Assembly: GCF_024713975.1 (NCBI RefSeq)
Contig: NC_091095.1
Location: 4,500,001 to 4,564,000 of the forward strand
DNA: 64,000 bases
Direction of reading: 5' to 3'
From: Paralichthys olivaceus
Taxonomy: Eukaryota; Chordata; Actinopteri; Pleuronectiformes; Paralichthyidae
The translations under genes were made by a program, and so were the position numbers. Below are positions 31,920 through 64,000 of this stretch, one piece after another. The notes beneath the pieces were generated by a model. It made no database searches, was not told the origin of the DNA, and saw only the letters and a list, made by a program, of their open reading frames with translations. The number at the start of each line of letters is the position of its first letter. The stretch's first letter is position 1.

Positions 31920-34601
31920 CTAAAACGTGTTGCGCTGCTCTGTGGCCGGATGCTGCTGAGCCAGTTTACCATAGCCGCCTCTGGCTGGGTCGTAGTCCTG
32001 CCGGTACTCATCTCTCACCTGCAGGAGAAACACAATCAGAAGACACAGATATATGACAGAATGTTCCATCACCAAACAACCGTTACAAGAGCAATCAAAT
32101 GCACCATTTTCCACGAGTGATGCATTTGATGGTTATAAATATTTTCCCACCCCGTTAACATTCCCACGTGATTAATTAAATTCAGATTTAACCCTAACTA
32201 TTGACTTTTGTGACTCCAAAAGTGATAATGATGCTCATTTCTTTAGACATTCACATTATTAGAAAGTGAAAAACTATTTTCTTTATATTTACAGTTATTA
32301 ATTATAGTTTTATAGGGAGGTTCCTATCCTATGATATCCTCGGGGTATTCTTAAAAGCAGAGAAAATGTTTGTGTTTTCTTATTAACACGAGCAGAAATC
32401 TTGTTGAATACAACTACACGACAACTGGACGTGTTTATATATGTTGTATTCGTTAACAGTATAATAAACACATTCATTTTTCAAATGCCATACTACAGTG
32501 AAGTTATCTCTTCAAAGGCCACAGTTAATCATGCATAATTCATTTTGAAAGTTATACCACTTTCTAAATATCATACTGATGTATTAAAATGTCATGAGGT
32601 TTTTTTTCAATGCAATTTCAGTATGTGTCATTTTTCAAATGTCATATTATTCTGTGTTTTTCATTGTTTTTCAAACTGCTGCACTGCAAAAAAAAAAAGA
32701 CAAGTCCAAACTTTTCCCCTATGGGCAGCTCGGGGTGAGACAGTGAAACTCCAATCAGCTGTTCCCCACTATGGAGGAGAATCTTATCATGGATCTATGC
32801 TGGGAATAAGTCTGTATTTCATTCTCTACAACGTGAACTGCTCTGTGTTGTATTTAATATAAACTACAGTGTTTTGGGACTGAGGGTGCTGACATACAGG
32901 CTGTTGGAATTATATTTTATTAAAAAAACTAACGAATCAGTGCTTTGCATGTTCACTTCTGAATATAAAAACATGTCAGCATCCACGCTGTGATGTTAAC
33001 ATGTTCATACAAGTGTCTGGAATCCTCACCTGTCCTCCAGATTTGCCGCGGCCGTGCTGTCGTCCCTCTTTGAAGCCGGCGTCCCAGTCTGTCCTGATGA
33101 TGCGGTCGTCGAGTCGTGTGCCATTAATGAAGCGCATGGCGTGTTCTGCGTCTGCACGTGTGTAGTATCTGGTGCAGCCGGAGGGTTAAGGTCTGTCACA
33201 GGCGTTTGATGGAGATGCGTGTGTGTTATTTTTGTGTCTGTGAATACAAGGTCTTCTATTTTCAAACACACCATTGTTTAATTGGGTGTTCCATTTCAAA
33301 GGATACTCGACAAAACAGAATCCGCAGGCCGTCTTCTTGACTTTATCCAGGCCGATGATGATCCGCTTCACGTCTCCACTTTTAGAAAACAACTCATGTA
33401 CCTGCAACATTGGAGCAAGGTCTGTTGTTAAATACAGAATATTAATTTAACCACATTTAAATGCACGTGTGTAATGTAATGTGCCAAACTAGCAAACATC
33501 AGGTATTTTAACAACAAAGAAGCTGATGAACTCAGTAAAAATGGTCGCCTGTCGTACCTGCTCCTCTGTGGTGTAGAAGGAGAGGTTCCCCACATACAAA
33601 GTGTGGCTCTGCTTCAGCAGCTTCTCCTGGTCATAACGATTACCCTGAAAAAACCCAAAATAATATCCTGTCAAAAACAGAACAGAACCAAGCAGAAAAC
33701 AACAGATGGCTTATCTCTATTATTACAGAAGCTATTATTAGAGTTCTGAGTTTATTATGTTAAAACAGGTTAGAGTCTGACTCAACAAAAGTAGAGTCAG
33801 ATATTTCTCTGTCTCGTTTTAGGAAAAATACCCGATAATCATTTGAGAAGAAGTGTTTGTGCAATTTATTACATTTTAAAGGAATACAATCATTTTGAAA
33901 CACAACCACACGATTAAAACCGACTGGAGGGGAAATTATAAGTACTTTATTTGAATGCTCAAACACTTTTATTGATAAATAATTGATAACTTGATTAAAT
34001 CCATTAAAACCAAGATGATAGAAATGAAACCCTAGATGTTCTCATGATGATCTCATGTCAAACATAAAAGAGGTGAAGGACAAAGAAAAGAATCATCTGC
34101 CAGTTTCAGCTTCATTTCATCATCAGTAAACTGCGACCTCTGAACGTTTATCAGCGTAATTAACAAATAAAACTTCTTATTTAAACGCTGCATCTTATTC
34201 TTTATAGATTATTTAATTATAATCTGGCTGCAAATGGTTACGAGCGGAAACGAGGGATCCTGAACCGACAATAAGAGTCGGTGCGGGGGACAGATTTCTA
34301 CAAACACCGAAGCTCCGGATGAAACTTTTCTGCTTTAGTTGACGTTTTTAAACTTGTCTGTTGAATGGATCCAACCCGGGACATTAAACTACATTAATAT
34401 TGTTTCACAGAGACAAGAAGTCGAGCTAATGAGCGACGACCTCACACGTTGGACCCGTGTTTGCTAACGGTTGCTAACTGTTAGCTAGCGTGATGCGCCG
34501 CTGGAAGCCTCGCTGGGTGATTTTACCTTGAAGTGCTGGTCCCTGTATTGACTGACGTCGATGTAAGAGTCGCTGTTCAACGCGTTCAGAATCGCAGACA
34601 T
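31920..34601 (-). CDS. ncbp2: Nuclear cap-binding protein subunit 2 (CBP20)
   Basis: Five coding exons, all with in-phase splice sites: 34527-34601, 33558-33644, 33307-33401, 33030-33168 and 31920-32018. They encode 164 aa; the human protein is 156. The product is the small subunit of the nuclear cap-binding complex, which binds the m7G cap of RNA polymerase II transcripts with NCBP1 and acts in splicing, export and pioneer translation. The start [20 protein letters not shown] is the family N-terminus. The RRM is clear, with RNP2 LYVGNLSF at about residues 38-45 and RNP1 GFCFVEYY at about 79-86. Cap-contacting features follow ([13 protein letters not shown], then the RG-rich tail with [19 protein letters not shown]). 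The tail ends with an unusual extension, [12 protein letters not shown]. Intron 3 (33169-33306) carries U12-type signals. In human its divergent partner is NCBP2AS2; here an fkbp2-like gene lies between them. Confidence 0.95.
33169..33306 (-). other. ncbp2: U12-type (minor spliceosome) intron of ncbp2
   Basis: In the mRNA sense the intron begins GTATCCTTT, a perfect U12 5' splice site, directly after '...TTTGTCGA'. It contains CCTTAAC, the U12 branch-site core, about 15 nt before the acceptor CACCAG. Joining at these sites restores the conserved ...[14 protein letters not shown]... frame across a phase-2 junction. Confidence 0.85.
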
Positions 34602-38245: not shown

Positions 38246-38516
38246 ATCTGCCGTCCTCTCGCGTGAACTGGGACGTGACGCTGCCGTCAGTGCGCGATGA
38301 CCTCACAGATCTCCAGCTGTGACCTCATCAGCTGCTTGTGAGTCAACTTCTCTCTGTCTTCAAACTTCTCCCGCAGCTCACGCGACAGAATCAACCATCA
38401 CAGGTCGATGTGCGTGTCTCTGACTGTTCACGTCGTTTTTTCCCCGCAGAGCCGAGAACCCCGCAGTGTGGACGCGGGCTGCTAACGCTTAGCTAGCCAA
38501 GCTAACGCCCGCCGCC

Positions 38517-38822
38517 ATGCTGTCCCGCTTGTTGTTCTCCCTCATCAACAACCTCCGCGTCGTGGAGAAGTTGGCGGAGTCTCGGCCGATCCGCAGGGCG
38601 GCGCAGATCACCGCCTACGCCATCACCAAGGCTCAGATGGCCGGCCGGGACGCCTCGGAGCGGGCCATGCGGTCGCAGACGCTGCGGCAGGTCCGGGAGG
38701 AGGCCGGCAGGGTCCCCGGGGACCTGGGCGAGGTGGGCAGCCGCCTGAGGAGGGTCCGGGAGACGTTCGTGAACGAGGTGAAGGAGGGATGGAAGGACGG
38801 CTCCAGGCAGGTCAAGAAGTAA
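38517..38822 (+). CDS. ncbp2as2: NCBP2-AS2 homologue, small conserved protein
   Basis: A single-exon ORF of 101 aa. The N-terminus MLSRLLFSLINNLRVVEKLA, then ESRPIRRAAQITAYA, aligns with the human NCBP2AS2 protein (same spacing of the SRPIRRAAQ block). The remainder is basic and helical-looking, rich in Arg and Glu, with a terminal basic KEGWKDGSRQVKK. The hydrophobic, basic N-terminal helix would fit mitochondrial association, but that is inference. The start codon follows 'cccgccgcc', a strong context, in GC-rich DNA. Despite the 'antisense' name this is plainly a protein-coding gene. Its 5' end faces the fkbp2-like gene about 1.1 kb away, and its 3' end converges with the meltf 3'UTR. Confidence 0.9.
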   Translation: MLSRLLFSLINNLRVVEKLAESRPIRRAAQITAYAITKAQMAGRDASERAMRSQTLRQVREEAGRVPGDLGEVGSRLRRVRETFVNEVKEGWKDGSRQVKK

Positions 38823-40030: not shown

Positions 40031-40058
40031 CAACAGAGTGAATTTTGCAGCATAAACT

Positions 40059-40064
40059 TTATTT
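40059..40064 (-). terminator. meltf: Candidate poly(A) signal of meltf
   Basis: Minus-strand AATAAA about 1.44 kb after the meltf stop and 36 nt beyond the end of IRE-4. Use of this site would give a 3'UTR that includes all four IRE stem-loops. Confidence 0.5.
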
Positions 40065-40099
40065 CATTTGTAGATAGCAGAGAAAAAATCTTTATGCAT

Positions 40100-40140
40100 T
40101 AATACTTATGCAGACGCACTGGTCTGGCAACTAAATATTA
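40100..40140 (-). promoter_or_regulatory. meltf: Iron-responsive element 4 in the meltf 3'UTR
   Basis: In mRNA sense: upper stem CAGAC/GTCTG (five perfect pairs), loop CAGTGC and a bulged C (40127) directly 5' of the upper stem. The lower stem is G-C, T-A, a two-nt bulge, then nine consecutive pairs (one G-U) to 40140/40100. It satisfies every position of the canonical IRE and has the AU-rich lower stem seen in transferrin receptor 3'UTR IREs. It differs in stem sequence from IREs 1-3. Confidence 0.85.
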
Positions 40141-40211
40141 GTCACATGTGACATCATTTCACAGAGAAATAATTCCATATCAAGGGGAAAAGGAGACGAT
40201 GGTTGCTGACA

Positions 40212-40253
40212 GCATGAGTCAGTACATATACACTGATATGGCACCTGAACTTC
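40212..40253 (-). promoter_or_regulatory. meltf: Iron-responsive element 3 in the meltf 3'UTR
   Basis: Upper stem CATAT/ATATG, loop CAGTGT and bulged C at 40241. The lower stem starts G-U, T-A, G-C, G-U and continues with bulges (C-G, T-A, G-C, A-T). The lower stem is the least regular of the four. The 13-nt core TGCCATATCAGTG is shared exactly with IREs 1 and 2. Confidence 0.78.
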
Positions 40254-40939
40254 ATATAAAAATAGAAATCTCAACATATAGGAAAATACACATCCAATCA
40301 TCAATTATAAAACAAACAGTACCGAGCAGCAGGAAGCATTTTAGATATCAGAAAAGTCTTGTAGCGATTATTGCTTTTCAAATGTGATTTATTTTGTTCT
40401 ACAACTTTATTTAAAAACCTTTGCACAAGGAAATTTGAGTAAAACCAGTATCCAAAACCTGTTTTTCTTAAACTGACATTTTGGCCACTCTTAGAAATCT
40501 GCACCTTCACTGCTAGATGTCACTAAATCCCACACATCGAACTTTTAAACCATCCAAGTACAAGATGTTTTCTTCATGTTCTCCCCAAACCACTGAGTTT
40601 GTGTCCATTTGTGTCTCAATGTGTAAACTAATCTTTTAGAGGGGGAAATGGTCGGAGTGACAGAATAAGAAAATGGCTCAAGCAGCAAAAGCAAAAGCAT
40701 CTGCAAGCAGCAAATGAATGTTTCCTTTTATTTATTAATTAATTCATTATTTGTATTAACATTTCTTGTTTAATCCTTTTGCAAAGCAATAAGAAAAGTG
40801 CAACGGAAATGAAATAAAGATTATTATTATCATTATGAATAAAACTGGATGAATTTAATCATTTATATCTTTAACTTTTAAGCTTTCGAGGAGAATACAT
40901 CATAACAACGTCCCGACCACAGCTCTGTGTGGAGGCAAC

Positions 40940-40970
40940 ACTAGTGCATATTCACTGATATGGCATTAGC
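40940..40970 (-). promoter_or_regulatory. meltf: Iron-responsive element 2 in the meltf 3'UTR
   Basis: Upper stem CATAT/ATATG, loop CAGTGA and bulged C at 40963. The lower stem is GCTAATG with CACTAGT, giving G-C, T-A, one mismatch, A-T, T-A, C-G, G-U. Both the primary and secondary IRE consensus are met. Confidence 0.85.
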
Positions 40971-41164
40971 TTCTATGAGAAACACAGCCTGAACTAAGAA
41001 AAGGCTTTTCCAGTACTGACATATCAAGTGGCAGCAGAACAACCAACAGCAACAATCTGATTTCTACGTCCACATGAAAACCTTTGCAAATGGTCAAACT
41101 GGCTGAACTTTGTAAAACAAGCTTTGGACAGACAGGCACTAGTACCCACTAATGCAATGTAACA

Positions 41165-41198
41165 GGTGGCAGCATACACACTGATATGGCAGCTCACC
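41165..41198 (-). promoter_or_regulatory. meltf: Iron-responsive element 1 in the meltf 3'UTR
   Basis: Upper stem CATAT/GTATG (last pair T-G), loop CAGTGT and bulged C. The lower stem pairs GGTG with CACC and GCTG with CTGC, with one unpaired A and one T-T mismatch. It is the closest of the four to the stop codon, about 310 nt downstream. Confidence 0.85.
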
Positions 41199-41503
41199 CT
41201 CCGTAAACAACATGGCAGCGATGCCTGATTGACACCGGCTGAAAGAACTATTTAAATCCAAAGGCAGCTCCAACATGCCTCCCATCTCGTAGATTAAAAT
41301 ATCACACAATCGGGTCGAGGTTCTGCTATTTCACGATTTAAAAACACATTCAGGGATAGAAGGAGAGAGGGAGAGTGCCTCCTGAAAAGCACAAGGGGCT
41401 GAGATATACTGTGGTGGGTGAGGAAGAGAGAGATGAAGAGAAAAAGAGGAAGAATAAAAAGAGGAAGGGATTAGAGGCAGAGTGTCATTCTGTGTGTTTA
41501 TAT

Positions 41504-49755
<8,252 letters not shown>

Positions 49756-56016: not shown

Positions 56017-59000
56017 TCAAAGTCGCTCCTTGGTTGGAATCCAGATGTATGGACCGGACTGCTCCTCCACGATCTGCTTCACCTGCGAGTAAACTTCCTC
56101 TAGAGACGAGCCCTGGACTATTCCTGCACAGAGACAGAGACAGACAGGGACACACAGAGACACACAGAGACACTGGGTCAACCACACAGCAAACATTTGT
56201 CCAAATATATAACACACGGAAAATAAAGTATATTCAAAAACTCCATTAAATGAGATGATACCAGTAAAGGTCAATATTATCATCATTATTGTTATTATTA
56301 GAAATAGTAAAAAACTATTTAGTGACCAACACAAAGACACAGCACGAAACAAGAGAGGGAACTAGACCTGACCACCTCAACTACAGGAAAAGAGGAGAGA
56401 CGAGCTGAGCGTCAGGGGTTTTATTTAGAAGATGTAAAGTTTTCTGATTCCTCTCAGAACATGAGTGGGTTCAGGTGTTTGTGGGAAAACCGCTCTGGCT
56501 CGTGAATGTGTGCTCCGGTGTGGAACTAACCGGTGAAGTATTCCGTGAACTCCTGCTCCAGTTTGACCGCTCGGTCGAACGTCTTCCTCGCCTGCTCCTC
56601 AGTGAAGCGCTTGTTCATCTCTCTGGAGACAGACGAGAGTCACAAATCACAACTGAGACGTAACGTACAGTTTCAGAATTACATTTTTACAACATCTTTT
56701 TCCAGGAATATGAACTCCCCATAACCTCATTGACCTCAGTGTAGAGTTCAGCAGGTCCCATGATGTGATGACAGAGGTGGGTTAATGAGCTCCGATAAGA
56801 ACCATGTGATATGGAAAAGGTTGTTACTGACTGGACCTTATGGTGAGATTCACTGGCCTTAGTAACGTTACTCACAGGATGTTGTCGACGTTGCGTGGGC
56901 TAATGAAAATAGCGACGGGATGGAGGCCTGCCATCTGGAGACGCTTTATTGCATTCCCTGATACGTCCAGTATACAATGTTTACCCTGGTGGAGAGAGAG
57001 CATCAAACAAAGAGAGAGAGAGAGAGAGAGAAATCATTAAGTTCCTCTGTGTGTTCTGTCCTCCATCGATCCCTTCACGCTGTTTCCTCTGCCGTTTGTT
57101 TTATTCCTCCTCTCCTCCACCGTGTCACGTCTCTCGGCGTCTCACCTTGTCGGCGACCTCTCGGACAGACTGTATGCTGGTTCCATACAGATGGTTGTTG
57201 TACTGTCCGGCCTCGATGAATTTATGCTCCTGGATCTCTTGCTCCATGAGCTCTCTGGAGGACATGAAGTGGTAATCTCTGCCGTCCACCTCGTAGTCTC
57301 GCCGCGGCCGCGTCGTGTCTGAGGATCAATGGTTTTACACAGTGTTAAAAAATAGATCAGGTCCTTGTGTTAAAGAAAACTGTAACAACAGGTTTGTTCC
57401 CTGATGTCCGGAGAACATGATTTGCAGCCTGAAGCGTCTGTGTAGCATCACATTTCTTCATTTATGTTGTTACACATTTGACCTTTATCAACAAATTGCA
57501 GCAATTACATATTACACCAGGCCATATCACGGTTTCGATAATATTTTTTTTTATTATTCGGACCAACTTTCAGGTTTTAAACTTTACAGGAAATGAAATA
57601 CAACTGTATATTCATTTCGATTCATTTTAATCTTTGACTTGAAATTTCAATTCACACTCGTCTCGACCCCGTGAGGGAGCAAACCGCTGTGTTTTCAGTT
57701 TTGCTTCAAGCTACACATCAATTTCAAGTGAGTTCGTAAAAAAGTGCTGAGATGTATAACACATAAACATCACAGGAGTCTGAGGCGTCAGCATCTGTTA
57801 CGGCATCATAAACATGATTTTACAGTTTTCATAATGTGAGTGAAGGTCAACATAGGTAACCTATACTGTACGTTTCTGTACGTTTCAGAGGTCAGTTCTT
57901 ATACGAGACTCACGTGGGACACATGAGCCAAACTTATCAGGGAACTCAGAGATGAGGTCATCGTTGATCCGATCTTTCATCGGTCCGAGCACGATGACTG
58001 GCCGCGTGTAATTAACTGAAAAAGAGAAACAGAACCACATCGATAAACAGGAAGACACAAATTAGGATGATTTAAGTGATGACAACACAACAGCATCCAC
58101 TTTTCTCCTTTTAATTATATTCAAGTATCTTTGAAGCTATTCATTATTTTTAAGAATCAATATTAGGTGAAATAATTGTGTGCGGCTCTTAGTGTCAAAT
58201 CCACAAAGACTTGTCATCCACCGCTGCAGCTCTACAGAGTCTTTAAGTGACTGCTCTGGTTTTACAGCTCAACGGCTCAATGTCAGTAAACAAGTATTCA
58301 AAGTTTACCAATAAGAGCCGGATATTTTCCTCAGGAGCTGAACAGAGAGTAAATACTGGACTTACAACATGTCTGCTTGATGTATAAACAGACATGTGGC
58401 TGCTCACATGTGAAACACAACAACTCTGCATGTCAGTGATGTGTGCAGCTTTTTTCTGCTGTCGCCAAGTGGCCAAGAAAAGCCATTGACTTTTGGTATA
58501 TATTCTATATAATCATTTTTACACATTAATACAGGACGATATATTTGTAATTTATATCCTATTTATTACAATGAGCATTTATAGAGTTTCACTTTGCAAA
58601 TGAAGAAGGGTGTTTTTATCAACGTCCATGATTGAAAAACATAAAGTGAATCAAAATAAAATGAGAGGGTGAAGCTCTGACCTTCCTGCTGCATGACAGG
58701 TTGGTAGGTGAGTAAAGTCTCCTCCTGACCGGCTGATTGGACAAACAGAAATGACACGTTTAGAGGAGCAGAGGAGGAAAATCATCAAAACACAACCTCA
58801 TCCTTTTCCATTTTTCACTTTTGGCTTCATCAACAGCTCTGAAACATCAGGCTGGAGAAGCAGAGGAAGGTGACACTCACACACACGCACTCACACACAC
58901 TCACACACACGCACATACACGTCACACACGTGCACACACACCCACACATGCACATAAAAACACTATAAGCACAACACACAAATACATGTATTTGTGTTAA

Positions 59001-59983
59001 TGTATGCATGACAATCCCACAAGGACACACAGAGACAAACACACCACAAACAAAAAACAAAAAAATAAGAAGAGAGAGAGACAGACAGAGACAGAGAGAG
59101 AGACAGAGACAGAGACAGAGACATAGACGAGGGTCTAGACTTACAGGAACTACTCTCACTATCGCTGGTGCCAGAGGTTACCAGCTCTGGAAGGACAAGA
59201 CAGGTCAGAGTCAGCAACACAAACACACACATAGAAGCACATACACACAAGCACACGCCAATCACACATAAAAACACACACAGACTTCCATCCTTAACAC
59301 ACACTTTATCTTGCATTGTTCGGTCAGTATGCAGGACATGTCATAAAGTAGAATACGTGTATGTAAATGATGACAGCACAACTAAGTACAGCTTCTAAAA
59401 TGTAAATGTAAAAGGTGCACTCTGGGTATTGTACTTCCATAAATTTGCAGGACTAGGGATAAACAGGTGAAACTGATAGATCTATGGATTTCATCTCCAT
59501 CAATTACATTTGAAGCATGTGTGTATTGTTCTTTTTACTTTTGCAAAGTTTGGAAGCAGATATCCAATTAAATTAAACAACCACACATCACCCGATGTCC
59601 GAATGATGAAGTGATTAAACAAATATCCTCTAAAACAACCCGACCTCCCTCGACATCATGTTCCTTGAAGAAGGAGGTAAAGAGAACTGCACAGTGGTGT
59701 AAAATACCGTACTGACCAGCAGGTGTCGCTGATGGAAAGACTACCTACCTTTATCATCCTGATCCTGCAGAGGAAGAGAGAGACAGAGAGACAAAGAGAG
59801 AGAGACAGAATTAATTATCACGCCCAAGATAATAAAAACAGAAGACTTGGTTTTAGGGTCAGAATTAGTTTTAGGTCAGGTTAAGGGTTAGGCTTTTAGT
59901 TTGGATGGTTAGGGTTTGGGTAAGGGGCTGGGGAATTCATAATGCCAATGACTGTCCTCACTAAGATAGAAGTACAAACGTGT

Positions 59984-60015
<32 letters not shown>

Positions 60016-63000
60016 GATATTTTTTAATTATCTCCTCTTCATCATGCTGAGCTGCTGATTCACATAGTGCGAGGAAAACACAGCGAGCTGACAACACAGT
60101 GATATCAATAGCTGGTGTTAGACTCGTGTGTCGGCTGCCGTCATCACGATGTGTGAGTGAGATTAAAGTCACGTCGTCGCCTCGCATGCAAGCTCAGGGA
60201 GGAACTTTCCAGATCAAAGAAACAACTTACTGTGTTTTATTTAAGCCTTAATTACTGTTGGTGCTTTCTTAGTTTGACCGGATTGAAGACGACATCACAC
60301 AGTCAGGGGATGTTGTCTGTGGTTTGCCAAATATTCAGCAGGTTCTCCGACACGACGGAGACGCTGCTCATCCAGAGTTTTTGTGCTCTCAGGCTAAAAT
60401 GTCTGGTTTTCAACACCAGCAGTGAACGATACCGGTTTGTAAGTTTTGGTCCAGACCTTTGGACTTTTCAGTTTATTCTGAAGCAAAACAAATCTTCTCC
60501 TCACGATATAATGTTTAAACAACAAGGAGCCTCATGTTGCTGGTAGTAACACACACTCGAGTACAGACCAATCAAAGCCAAGTATAGATAAACGCAGCCC
60601 ACGGTGATGATGACAGGACGATCTTATGTCATGTAAAAGTCTGAAGTGCGCTCCCTTCATTACAATGTGAAATTAAAACTGGATCAAATGAAAACGATGT
60701 AATAAAGACATGAACTACAGTTTGGACCTCGTGGACCATGGTCCAGACATTCAGGTGTCTTTATTTACTGTCTTAATAAAAAAAAAGATCTGAGAAGTCT
60801 CTACTCACCGATCTGTCCTGAGACCTCGACACTCTGACCGTCTTTAACCTCGACCGCTCCTTCTTCTCCGCCCTGTGGGACAGAGAGAAAGAGCATTTAG
60901 AGAAACGCTGAGGGACGAAGACGGGACGAGAAAGCAGCGAGAGGAAAGAGGAAGGAGACAGAAGGTAATGGTGTTTAGTGACAGCTATGAGAAACATTAG
61001 TGATCAAGCATGTGAACTTCCTGTAACACTGAGACTTTTCATTTCATTCAGTGCTGTTTATACTGTGAGACTCTGCCCACACAACAGTAACTGTTCACAC
61101 AGAGACTGTGCTGAGGTTGAACTCTGTTTGTGAAGGGATTTCCATCTGAAGCTTCTTTTATGTTTGAAAGATCCAAACTGCAAACGCAGAATCATCCTGA
61201 TGTTTTTAAAGAACAAAAATCCTGAAACTGTAGAACTAGTTTAAACTGTATCATCCCACAATAACCTTTTATCGTAAAAAAAAAAAAAAAAAAAAAAAAA
61301 TCATTTTGTCCCTGTCTATATTTGAAGTATATTTTTGGATCTACTCTAACTCATCTGCGAGCGTCACTATGAATTTATGGGATTTCTGTCGAGCAGTGGG
61401 AGGTGGCTGATTGAATTTTGTGGAATTTGACGTCCAGATGTGATGTAACTTGACGGTAAAGAGCAGATCCATGTCCTCTAATCTGAATGTTCTGTAATTA
61501 ACTTATCACAGATGGACAAGAGACAGAGAACATGACGTCAGCTGCAGCGTCAGGGACCAGAACAGACACTCTGCTTTCATACAGCGTCTGCTTCGGAGAC
61601 ATTTTGGTCTCCTACAAGTTTAAAATTAGATTTGTCACTTCCTGTGCGGGACCATTGTCTGCTGGCGATCATATTCGCTGCTTGAATTTCCAATAAGCTT
61701 GATGTGCAGCGTCTCGGTTGAGGGACCTGTTTGCTTCTTGAAGCCTCATTTCATAATTTAGTTAAGTCAGATTTATTTGGAAGTTTGTAAAAACAGCGAA
61801 ACAACTGACGCTGAAAATAAAGCGGCTGCTTCGTGGTCCAAAGCAGAAATAAAGGTAAAATCTTTAAATCCCTGACGACAGCAAAGATCTGAAAAATAAA
61901 ATATATCTTTACACTTCTGCAACATCTTTACTTTTACCTCTCCACTCCACTCCTTTTTTTTTTCTTCCCTTCAGTGAATATAATCAAAATGTGATTTCCA
62001 AGCAAAAACCCACCGGTTATTTTACTTGAGAAGGAGAGGAAGAGGAGGAGGAGGCGAGGAGGATGAAGAGTGGCAGACAGGGAGAGAGCACAAGTGGAGA
62101 GGAAAGGGGGAAAATGGGAGGAGGATAAGATTTTGGATGAAGTGAAAGGAGGATGAGAGGAAGAAGGGAGAAGGAGGGGAATAGGGGAAAGGGAAGAGGA
62201 GAGGGAGAGAAGGAGGGAAGTGAGAAGGCAGAAGAAGAAGACAGGAGGGGCAGAGGAGAGAAAGAAAATTATGTGAAGGGAGGAAGATAAGAGGAGAGAA
62301 GGAGAGGAGGGGAAGAAATGAAGAAAACAGAGAGAAAGTGAGGAGAGATGGAAGAAGAGAAGAATGAGACAAAGTTGGCCAAAGGTTTAAAGGAGGGGAG
62401 AGGAAGAGGGATAGAGCAAAACAGAGCATGTGGAAGAAAGGGACTGAAAGGAAGATAAGATGAGGGGAAGAGGAGGAGGAGGTGAAGGAAAGGAGGGAAC
62501 ATCTTAAACGTCTCATATTGAAAGACTGCGTGGAGCGCATACAATAATTAACCTCACATTCATTATACCTCTATTTGTTCTAATGTCCAGTCATTTATGT
62601 ATCTGCTGGATTTATAATATTCGAACATCTTTTACATTTCATATTTTCTATTCTATTACCCATAATGCACCAACCCAACACACCCTCTATATTCTAACAC
62701 CTCAGTCTATTAATACTCCACCCTCTGCACCCCTGTGTGACAATATCCATCCCTTCCGCGTTCACTCGCTCCTTCACCTACTCCCACTCCTCCTTGTTGC
62801 CTGTAAACCCTTCTTCCATCTTCCACTTATTCCCCCTCACTCTAACACGCTCTCAAACATCTGTCTGTCACCTCCTTCACGCCGGAGGATAGTGAGAAAG
62901 AAGAAGGGAGGTGTGTAGAGGTGAATATATATATATATATATTTATATAGATTTATTAGTTATCATTTTACAGATCCTCGTCTTTCGTGATATTTATGTA

Positions 63001-63950
63001 AAGTTGTTTGTGTCCGAATGAACACGTGTCCGATGGATGAATCTCCTTTCGGAACCGACGTGTGATCAGCGACTTAGAAAAACCAAAAATGTGATACAAG
63101 AAAGCTGCGTCACTGATTTCAAGTCTTTGTAACTATGGAAGACACGTTATTGAAACAACAGATAATTAGGACGTGGACGTCGAAATTCTAAAAATCTAAT
63201 GCGGAGAGTGTCCCTGAATTTTTATTTTTTCTAACCTCTTTCCTTTTTACAGTGTGTGAAACATCTCTATTTCCACCACAGGTTTACATTCAGCTGATTC
63301 CACACAACGACGATGCTCGCGGGTTAATGAGCCGACTGCAAAATGACACCGTGACGTAAATTGAAACTAATGTGAAAGTGCTGGAGCTGACGAGCTGAGA
63401 TTACCAGCTCAGTTGTCTTTGCTCTAGAAGCATCACAGAGCAGGTCCAATGATTTGTTTGCAGCATATGTAGTATTTATAATCGTATTCAGATCACGTCA
63501 GAGAGCGATGAGATGTCAGAGAAGTGTCACATTTATCTTAACTATTTATGTTTTGCAGAGTGGAGGTGAGGCTTTTAAAATGTGAACGTCCCAGCAGCAC
63601 TGATGGTTTTAATATGATTAAATCATGATCATAGATCATAGATAAGGTAAATGTTGAGGAGCATGTTGCGTGAGAGCGGTGACGGACTTGAGTCGACAGC
63701 CTGAATGAGCTCTCAGTTCAGAATCATTGAAAACATCTGCCCGTCCAAAAACCCCAGTGACTCTGACCTCCTGCGGCTGGGGATGACCCCGACTTCGGGG
63801 CAGTTCGGGGGCGGGGGGCTGAGGTGACGGGCGGGCCACCACTCCTCTTCGCCGGCGCCGCTCACATGGAGGATGTCCCCGAAATGAAACGGCAGGGCCT
63901 GATTGGGCGCGCTCAGATCCGACGCACTTCCGTCGTAGTCGAACAACGCT
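56017..63950 (-). CDS. dlg1: Disks large homologue 1 (SAP97), C-terminal part: SH3, hook, guanylate kinase-like domain
   Basis: Ten coding exons join in phase to 313 aa ending ...[13 protein letters not shown]: 63768-63950, 60809-60872, 59749-59764, 59145-59186, 58682-58732, 57914-58015, 57146-57318, 56876-56985, 56531-56622 and 56017-56123. DLG1 is a MAGUK scaffold at cell junctions and synapses. Seen here are the SH3 domain ([37 protein letters not shown]), a basic hook ([13 protein letters not shown]) and a variable linker with a 16-nt microexon. The guanylate kinase-like domain follows ([66 protein letters not shown]). The family's GK domain binds phosphopeptides and is catalytically inactive. 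The SH3 exon enters in phase 2, so the PDZ and L27 exons lie beyond the right edge. DLG1, not DLG2-4, is chosen because of its meltf/ncbp2 neighbours; the sequence alone is less decisive. Confidence 0.93.
56999..57030 (+). repeat. (GA)n run beside a dlg1 acceptor
   Basis: GA dinucleotides on the plus strand form part of the polypyrimidine tract (CT-rich in the mRNA sense) upstream of the exon at 56876-56985. Confidence 0.85.
58870..59290 (+). repeat. Compound CA-rich and AGAC-rich repeats around a dlg1 hook exon
   Basis: CA-rich DNA occupies about 58877-58960 and 59216-59290, with (AGAC/AGAG)n at about 59075-59125. The 42-nt hook exon 59145-59186 lies between them. In the pre-mRNA these read as UG-rich upstream and UCU-rich downstream. 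ORFs over the repeats are artefacts. Confidence 0.85.
59850..60017 (+). repeat. Fish repeat leading into a (GT)n microsatellite
   Basis: 'aggttaagggttaggctttt', 'gtaaggggctggggaattca', 'actgtcctcactaagataga' and 'agtacaaacgtgtgtg' match a well-known microsatellite-associated repeat of fish. GT units run to 60017. It lies in a dlg1 intron. Confidence 0.75.
61276..61300 (+). repeat. Poly(A) run
   Basis: Twenty-five consecutive A, possibly the tail of a decayed retroelement. No target-site duplication was recognised. Confidence 0.9.
62033..62507 (+). repeat. Long polypurine tract (GGA/GAA-rich)
   Basis: About 475 bp that is almost all A and G on the plus strand (pyrimidine-rich in the dlg1 pre-mRNA), with only scattered interruptions. 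The 172-aa Ser/Leu/Pro-rich ORF on the opposite strand is a by-product. Confidence 0.9.
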
Positions 63951-64000
63951 CTGCAGACAGAGAGAGAAGATTCACATTTACAACCTCACATCAATGAACT

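Follow-up and report, generated by a model that had tools for sequence, protein, structure and literature searches.

The window, that is, the whole stretch of 64,000 nt analysed in this study (positions 4,500,001 to 4,564,000 of contig NC_091095.1, assembly GCF_024713975.1, of the flounder Paralichthys olivaceus), carries on its minus strand a complete gene for melanotransferrin, meltf, followed by a long putative 3'UTR that contains four hairpins of the iron-responsive element (IRE) type. The features are listed below, with coordinates counted from the first base of the window.

41504..49755, minus strand: meltf coding gene (721 aa), gene model complete, with 16 coding exons and 15 of 15 introns GT...AG
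40040..41503, minus strand: predicted long 3'UTR of 1,464 nt, from the stop codon to just beyond the distal poly(A) signal
41165..41203, minus strand: IRE-1, loop CAGTGT from 41183, bulged C at 41189, upper stem CATAT/GTATG with one U-G pair
40940..40974, minus strand: IRE-2, loop CAGTGA from 40957, bulged C at 40963, upper stem CATAT/ATATG
40727..40736, minus strand: proximal overlapping AATAAA signals, present in the sequence and putatively used
40214..40253, minus strand: IRE-3, loop CAGTGT from 40235, bulged C at 40241, upper stem CATAT/ATATG, N7-N25 pair G-U
40100..40140, minus strand: IRE-4, loop CAGTGC from 40121, bulged C at 40127, upper stem CAGAC/GTCTG
40058..40063, minus strand: distal poly(A) signal AATAAA, present in the sequence and followed by a T/GT-rich stretch

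The last coding base of the minus-strand gene model is 41504. The predicted protein differs from P0001, 'melanotransferrin [Paralichthys olivaceus]', at one of 721 residues, and its top structural match is 6xr0 (E 1.8e-240, 803 bits), which we take to be human melanotransferrin, followed by other transferrins at about 449 bits. Its layout comprises a signal peptide, two transferrin lobes and a hydrophobic C-terminal tail that was judged by eye to be of the GPI type. A whole-genome search identified a single meltf locus and three further transferrin-like matches (contigs C16 and C12, 47-55% identity), while a protein search of the viral_contigs and genome_contigs collections returned no relatives. 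Open frames at 57000-64000 minus, 38493-38822 plus and 33000-33700 minus resemble genes that we take to be DLG1, NCBP2AS2 and NCBP2, respectively; these are presumably the neighbours of MELTF on human 3q29, in which case the gene order is conserved. The intron after exon 8 contains a long tetranucleotide microsatellite (45570-45460 minus), which translates as YLSI repeats.

The definition of an IRE used here was taken from the motif table and rule of SIREs 3.0 (PMC12230718), coded with motif 22 left out and motifs 9a and 9b merged. The full rule comprises the hexaloop CAGUGN, five paired bases, a bulged C at N8 and a pair between N7 and N25. The first-pass annotation had placed four IREs downstream of the meltf stop on the minus strand and had counted four of the six CAGTG motifs in this UTR as IREs; the gene model and motif scan find the hairpins at these positions, and four of the six motifs in the 1,464-nt UTR satisfy the full rule, so the presence of the four hairpins is confirmed. 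All of them have the CAGUGN hexaloop (SIREs motif 1), a five-pair upper stem and an unpaired C at N8. The upper stem consists of five Watson-Crick pairs in IRE-2, IRE-3 and IRE-4 and of four plus one U-G in IRE-1; N7 pairs with N25 in all four hairpins, in one of them as G-U, and a CC at N8-N9 allows two equal bulge registers. The described anatomy thus holds for the loop, the bulge and the upper stem, but the lower stems, which had been called paired, are irregular beyond N7-N25, with the next three pairs holding in 8 of 12 cells. On the predicted extent of the UTR, the four elements span 1.06 kb, about 320-1,380 nt past the stop codon. The identity of the gene, its strand, the 3'UTR position, the anatomy of the hairpins and their clustering are supported.

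Covariance models gave a different picture. The first-pass annotation had suggested such models as a check, and here the outcome was unfavourable: neither Rfam model, IRE_I (RF00037) or IRE_II (RF02253), matched any of the four meltf hairpins at the gathering score or even at E <= 10 (searches over 3,001, 176 and 281 bases), and a whole-genome IRE_I search did not list them. The same models were also judged by what they found elsewhere in the flounder genome. IRE_I lists two sites (49.5 and 46.3 bits), presumed to belong to ferritin, while IRE_II lists 14 sites at tfr1, 10 of them over threshold; at E <= 10, IRE_I lists no tfr1 IRE and IRE_II lists neither IRE_I site. Because each model misses the sites of the other, both seem to read the sequence of the stem besides its shape, and because both proved narrow in this genome, the Rfam negative for meltf is not decisive; IREs with other stems can escape both models. 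A covariance model of our own, R1, built from six published human IREs, placed IRE-3 at the top (14.6 bits) and IRE-2 in fifth place among nine matches in the window when run without filters, leaving IRE-1 and IRE-4 unlisted, and with default filters it found none of the four hairpins and one other site in the window. R1 was rejected as too weak to judge the meltf hairpins, since it gave only 15-16 bits to the two IRE_I sites.

The transferrin receptor served as a positive control for the rule itself. The flounder genome contains two tfr1 genes, which were located by a pattern based on published human IREs and identified by C-termini that match structures of transferrin receptor 1. When extended to CAGAGN loops, the full rule finds seven elements 3' of one tfr1 gene and four 3' of the other, while none of 142 CAG[TA]GN loops at two control loci satisfies it. 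Of the 14 IRE_II sites at tfr1, 3 escape the rule, and for this reason it does not cover the whole of possible IREs. The two paralogues with IRE arrays are L032 on contig C16 and L033 on contig C17; the first four full IREs of L032 lie 235-249 nt apart with near-identical reading frames between them, an arrangement that looks like tandem repeats. Near matches on C15 and C13 were dropped, as they had only four of the five upper pairs, and the C20 locus had none. A TFR_dimer family search, tried as another route to tfr1, gave NAALADase-like genes (names by our own reading).

The number of IREs in the mature transcript could depend on the choice of the 3' end. The distal AATAAA at 40063 lies 52 nt beyond the IRE-4 loop, and the minus strand between IRE-2 and IRE-3 carries further signals, namely AATAAA at 40736, 40732, 40411 and 40393 and ATTAAA at 40859 and 40774. 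To judge from the signals in the sequence, use of the proximal ones would yield an mRNA with IRE-1 and IRE-2 only, and use of both ends could provide transcripts with either two or four IREs. A scan of the UTR for decay elements found three ATTTA motifs, a count made without a chance comparison, and two Y-R-Y triloop stems; the latter were rejected as decay stems because they are not above chance (43 of 300 shuffles reach two).

In TfR1 mRNA, binding of iron regulatory proteins (IRPs) at low iron protects against decay. The reading preferred here, which the first-pass annotation had also put forward, is that meltf is regulated in the same manner. At low cell iron, IRP1 and IRP2 would bind the IREs in the meltf 3'UTR and shield the mRNA from decay, and the protected mRNA would lead to more GPI-anchored melanotransferrin; when iron is high, the IRPs would be released and the mRNA degraded. 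From the analysis as a whole, it is likely, and we hold this with good confidence, that the four hairpins, or at least some of them, act as TfR1-like 3' IREs that stabilise meltf mRNA at low iron. For meltf, we infer transcription through 40100, the binding of IRPs, the direction in which they act and the machinery of decay. A four-IRE cluster in fish predicts that meltf mRNA rises upon chelation together with tfr1. If the reading is true, meltf would be added to the short list of genes with several IREs in the 3'UTR, its stems differing from those recognised by the Rfam models, which would show that models of this kind can overlook such elements.

It had also been claimed that all four hairpins fold as IREs, which holds by the rule; in 60-160 nt of context, however, the minimum-energy fold of IRE-1 and IRE-2 is not the canonical one. 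Short segments of 28-45 nt (28-41 nt for IRE-1 and IRE-2, 28-43 nt for IRE-3) have the canonical fold as their optimum in two of five cases for IRE-1, four of five for IRE-2, four of five for IRE-3 and five of five for IRE-4. At 37 C, the canonical fold of IRE-1 is the optimum in 40 nt and exceeds it by 2.1-3.3 kcal/mol in 60-160 nt, while for IRE-2 the excess is 0.3 kcal/mol in 40 nt and 1.5-2.9 kcal/mol in 60-160 nt; at 18 C, the two exceed the optimum by 1.5-3.1 kcal/mol in 60-160 nt. The canonical pairing probability of these two hairpins in context is at most 0.11. For IRE-3, the distance from the optimum is 0-1.0 kcal/mol over contexts of 40-160 nt. Its pairing probability is 0.9 in 60 nt, drops to about 0.22 when 160 nt are folded and is 0.06 for the whole UTR. 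The canonical fold of IRE-4 is the optimum at all four context lengths, and IRE-4 is the only hairpin with a high pairing probability when the whole UTR is folded. Based on these energies and probabilities, IRE-4, followed by IRE-3, is the strongest hairpin. The 11 full tfr1 elements, for reference, lie 0-1.5 kcal/mol from the optimum in 60 nt.

These energies bear on a weaker form of the preferred reading, which overlaps with it, in which only IRE-3 and/or IRE-4 are functional, the other two hairpins are weak or have decayed and add little, and regulation is modest or dependent on the distal poly(A) site. The gap between the two pairs of hairpins (at most 1.0 kcal/mol from the optimum against 1.5-3.3 kcal/mol above it) and the prominence of IRE-4 alone in the whole UTR are what this form would lead one to expect. 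However, the loop, the bulge and an unbroken upper stem are kept in all four hairpins despite their unlike flanks, and the energy model has no score for the C-G pair across the loop or for the help of a bound protein. We consider it rather unlikely that function is confined to one or both of the distal hairpins.

Comparison among the four copies bears on a second alternative. IRE-1, IRE-2 and IRE-3 have in common TGCCATATCAGTG, a run of 13 identical bases on the 5' side, and such an identity could reflect a linear site for a microRNA or a protein, to which the hairpin would be secondary. The stem of IRE-4 speaks against this, as it differs from those of IRE-2 and IRE-3 by two compensatory pairs (T-A to G-C and T-A to C-G) and nevertheless keeps the CAGTGC loop and the bulged C; a linear site is therefore very improbable. 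Over the nine pairs examined, pairing holds in 88.9% of cells, a value equalled by 36 of 500 shuffles, while the observed number of pairs changed on both sides was equalled by 18 of 500 shuffles and the covariation score by 21 of 500. Covariation among the four copies is thus supportive of the hairpin, with the little power that four rows afford. Outside the hairpins, identity among the four copies is 18-35%; this carries no sign of duplication, and a fresh tandem duplication was rejected as the origin of the four hairpins.

The cluster was also compared with chance expectation. The whole window has 205 CAGTGN sites on its two strands, of which 4 satisfy the full rule, all of them in the meltf UTR (4 of 6 UTR sites versus 0 of 199 other sites in the window; Fisher test, p = 2e-7), and the other 20 loop/bulge motifs coded from SIREs 3.0 yielded no full element in the window. 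In 20,000 dinucleotide shuffles of the UTR, 25 contained one element and none contained two or more. The 19-mer pattern of IRE-1, IRE-2 and IRE-3, TGCCATATCAGTGNRTATG, matches the 588-Mb genome perfectly at three places, each of them in meltf, and at 76 places if up to two mismatches are allowed, compared to 20 for the reversed pattern. A functionless array, produced by chance or by a short tandem duplication kept by drift, can draw on the fact that single elements are not rare (about 0.85 per Mb and strand at the UTR shuffle rate, or about 1,000 when extrapolated to the genome), but it is highly improbable given that the expected number of sets of four within 1.06 kb is about 1e-7 for the genome if independence is assumed, that the flanks lack duplication, that meltf is an iron gene, and that salmon meltf has been listed as well (PMC8544657).

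The iron-ligand residues of the encoded protein were surveyed in the best 120 of 1,549 protein matches, among which the named ones are all from fish and 10 are unnamed. The ligand positions in the flounder gene fall in exon 3 (48403-48304), exon 10 (44495-44399), exon 7 (46821-46637) and exon 14 (42959-42772). Among these best 120 matches, the N-lobe has Asp in only one and Arg at the His position in 119, while the C-lobe ligands are kept, with Asp in 118 and His in 119. In 6xr0, the iron-site Asp is found in the N-lobe, whereas in fish melanotransferrin it is found in the C-lobe. Because the C-lobe Asp and His are kept, it is plausible that flounder melanotransferrin binds iron through this lobe, which its ligand residues suggest is iron-competent. 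The same lobe swap of iron ligands has already been reported for melanotransferrin of Atlantic cod (PMC3125230). An unnamed protein on a 3,769-base contig (P0098, source jgi) is a melanotransferrin in which the Asp and His of the C-lobe are also replaced, by Gly and Ser, so that probably neither lobe binds iron.

Melanotransferrin is a transferrin whose function has long been elusive. Combining the elements above, we tentatively propose, at somewhat less than an even chance, that in ray-finned fish an IRP-controlled meltf forms a second, transferrin-independent arm of iron uptake, with a 3' IRE cluster parallel to that of tfr1, tunable between two and four elements by the choice of poly(A) site, and with iron bound in the C-lobe. 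Mammalian melanotransferrin (MELTF/MFI2) is said to lack an IRE, and according to a 2026 paper, which rejects the argument, this absence had been held against a role in iron transport (PMC13213057). If the reading of meltf as a second uptake arm is true, the mammalian absence that was used against an iron role would be a derived loss.

IREs in fish meltf are not wholly new, because salmon meltf has already been listed with a predicted 3'UTR IRE. The MicroSalmon study, published in 2021, applied UTRscan to the 3'UTRs of full-length Atlantic salmon mRNAs (71,461, or 43,305 after deduplication) and predicted an IRE in 138 transcripts of 43 genes, 9 of them iron-linked; its Table 2 gives meltf a single line as a gene with a predicted 3'UTR IRE and also names two tfr1 paralogues (PMC8544657). 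The gene, the part of the mRNA and the kind of element agree with flounder, while the number, position and sequence of the elements are not given in that listing. The salmon listing supports the conservation of a meltf IRE across distant teleosts and the transcription of such a UTR. The first-pass annotation had regarded the cluster as undescribed, and no description of a meltf IRE cluster was found in the open-licence literature searched, but novelty does not extend to a predicted IRE in fish meltf (PMC8544657). It had also called meltf a second IRE-cluster gene; the clustering stands, but since the genome has two tfr1 genes with arrays, meltf would be at least the third such locus.

Among known systems, the ferritin IRE family (IRE_I) has the loop, the bulged C and the five-pair upper stem that are also seen in the meltf hairpins. 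It differs in position and mode of action, as ferritin IREs lie in the 5'UTR and exert translational control, whereas the meltf hairpins lie in the 3'UTR. Mammalian MELTF/MFI2 encodes a protein orthologous to the flounder meltf product, yet its IRE is said to be absent (PMC13213057), and the present findings suggest that fish may tune melanotransferrin to iron supply, a control reportedly missing in mammals. A close parallel is TFRC/tfr1. Unlike TFRC/tfr1, meltf belongs to another gene family, its stems are not of the ATTATCGGGAG...CTTCCATAAT type and none is listed by IRE_II, its lower stems are short and irregular, and two of its four hairpins fold less well in context; like TFRC/tfr1, it carries several CAGTGN bulged-C hairpins over about 1 kb of the 3'UTR of a single iron-uptake gene.
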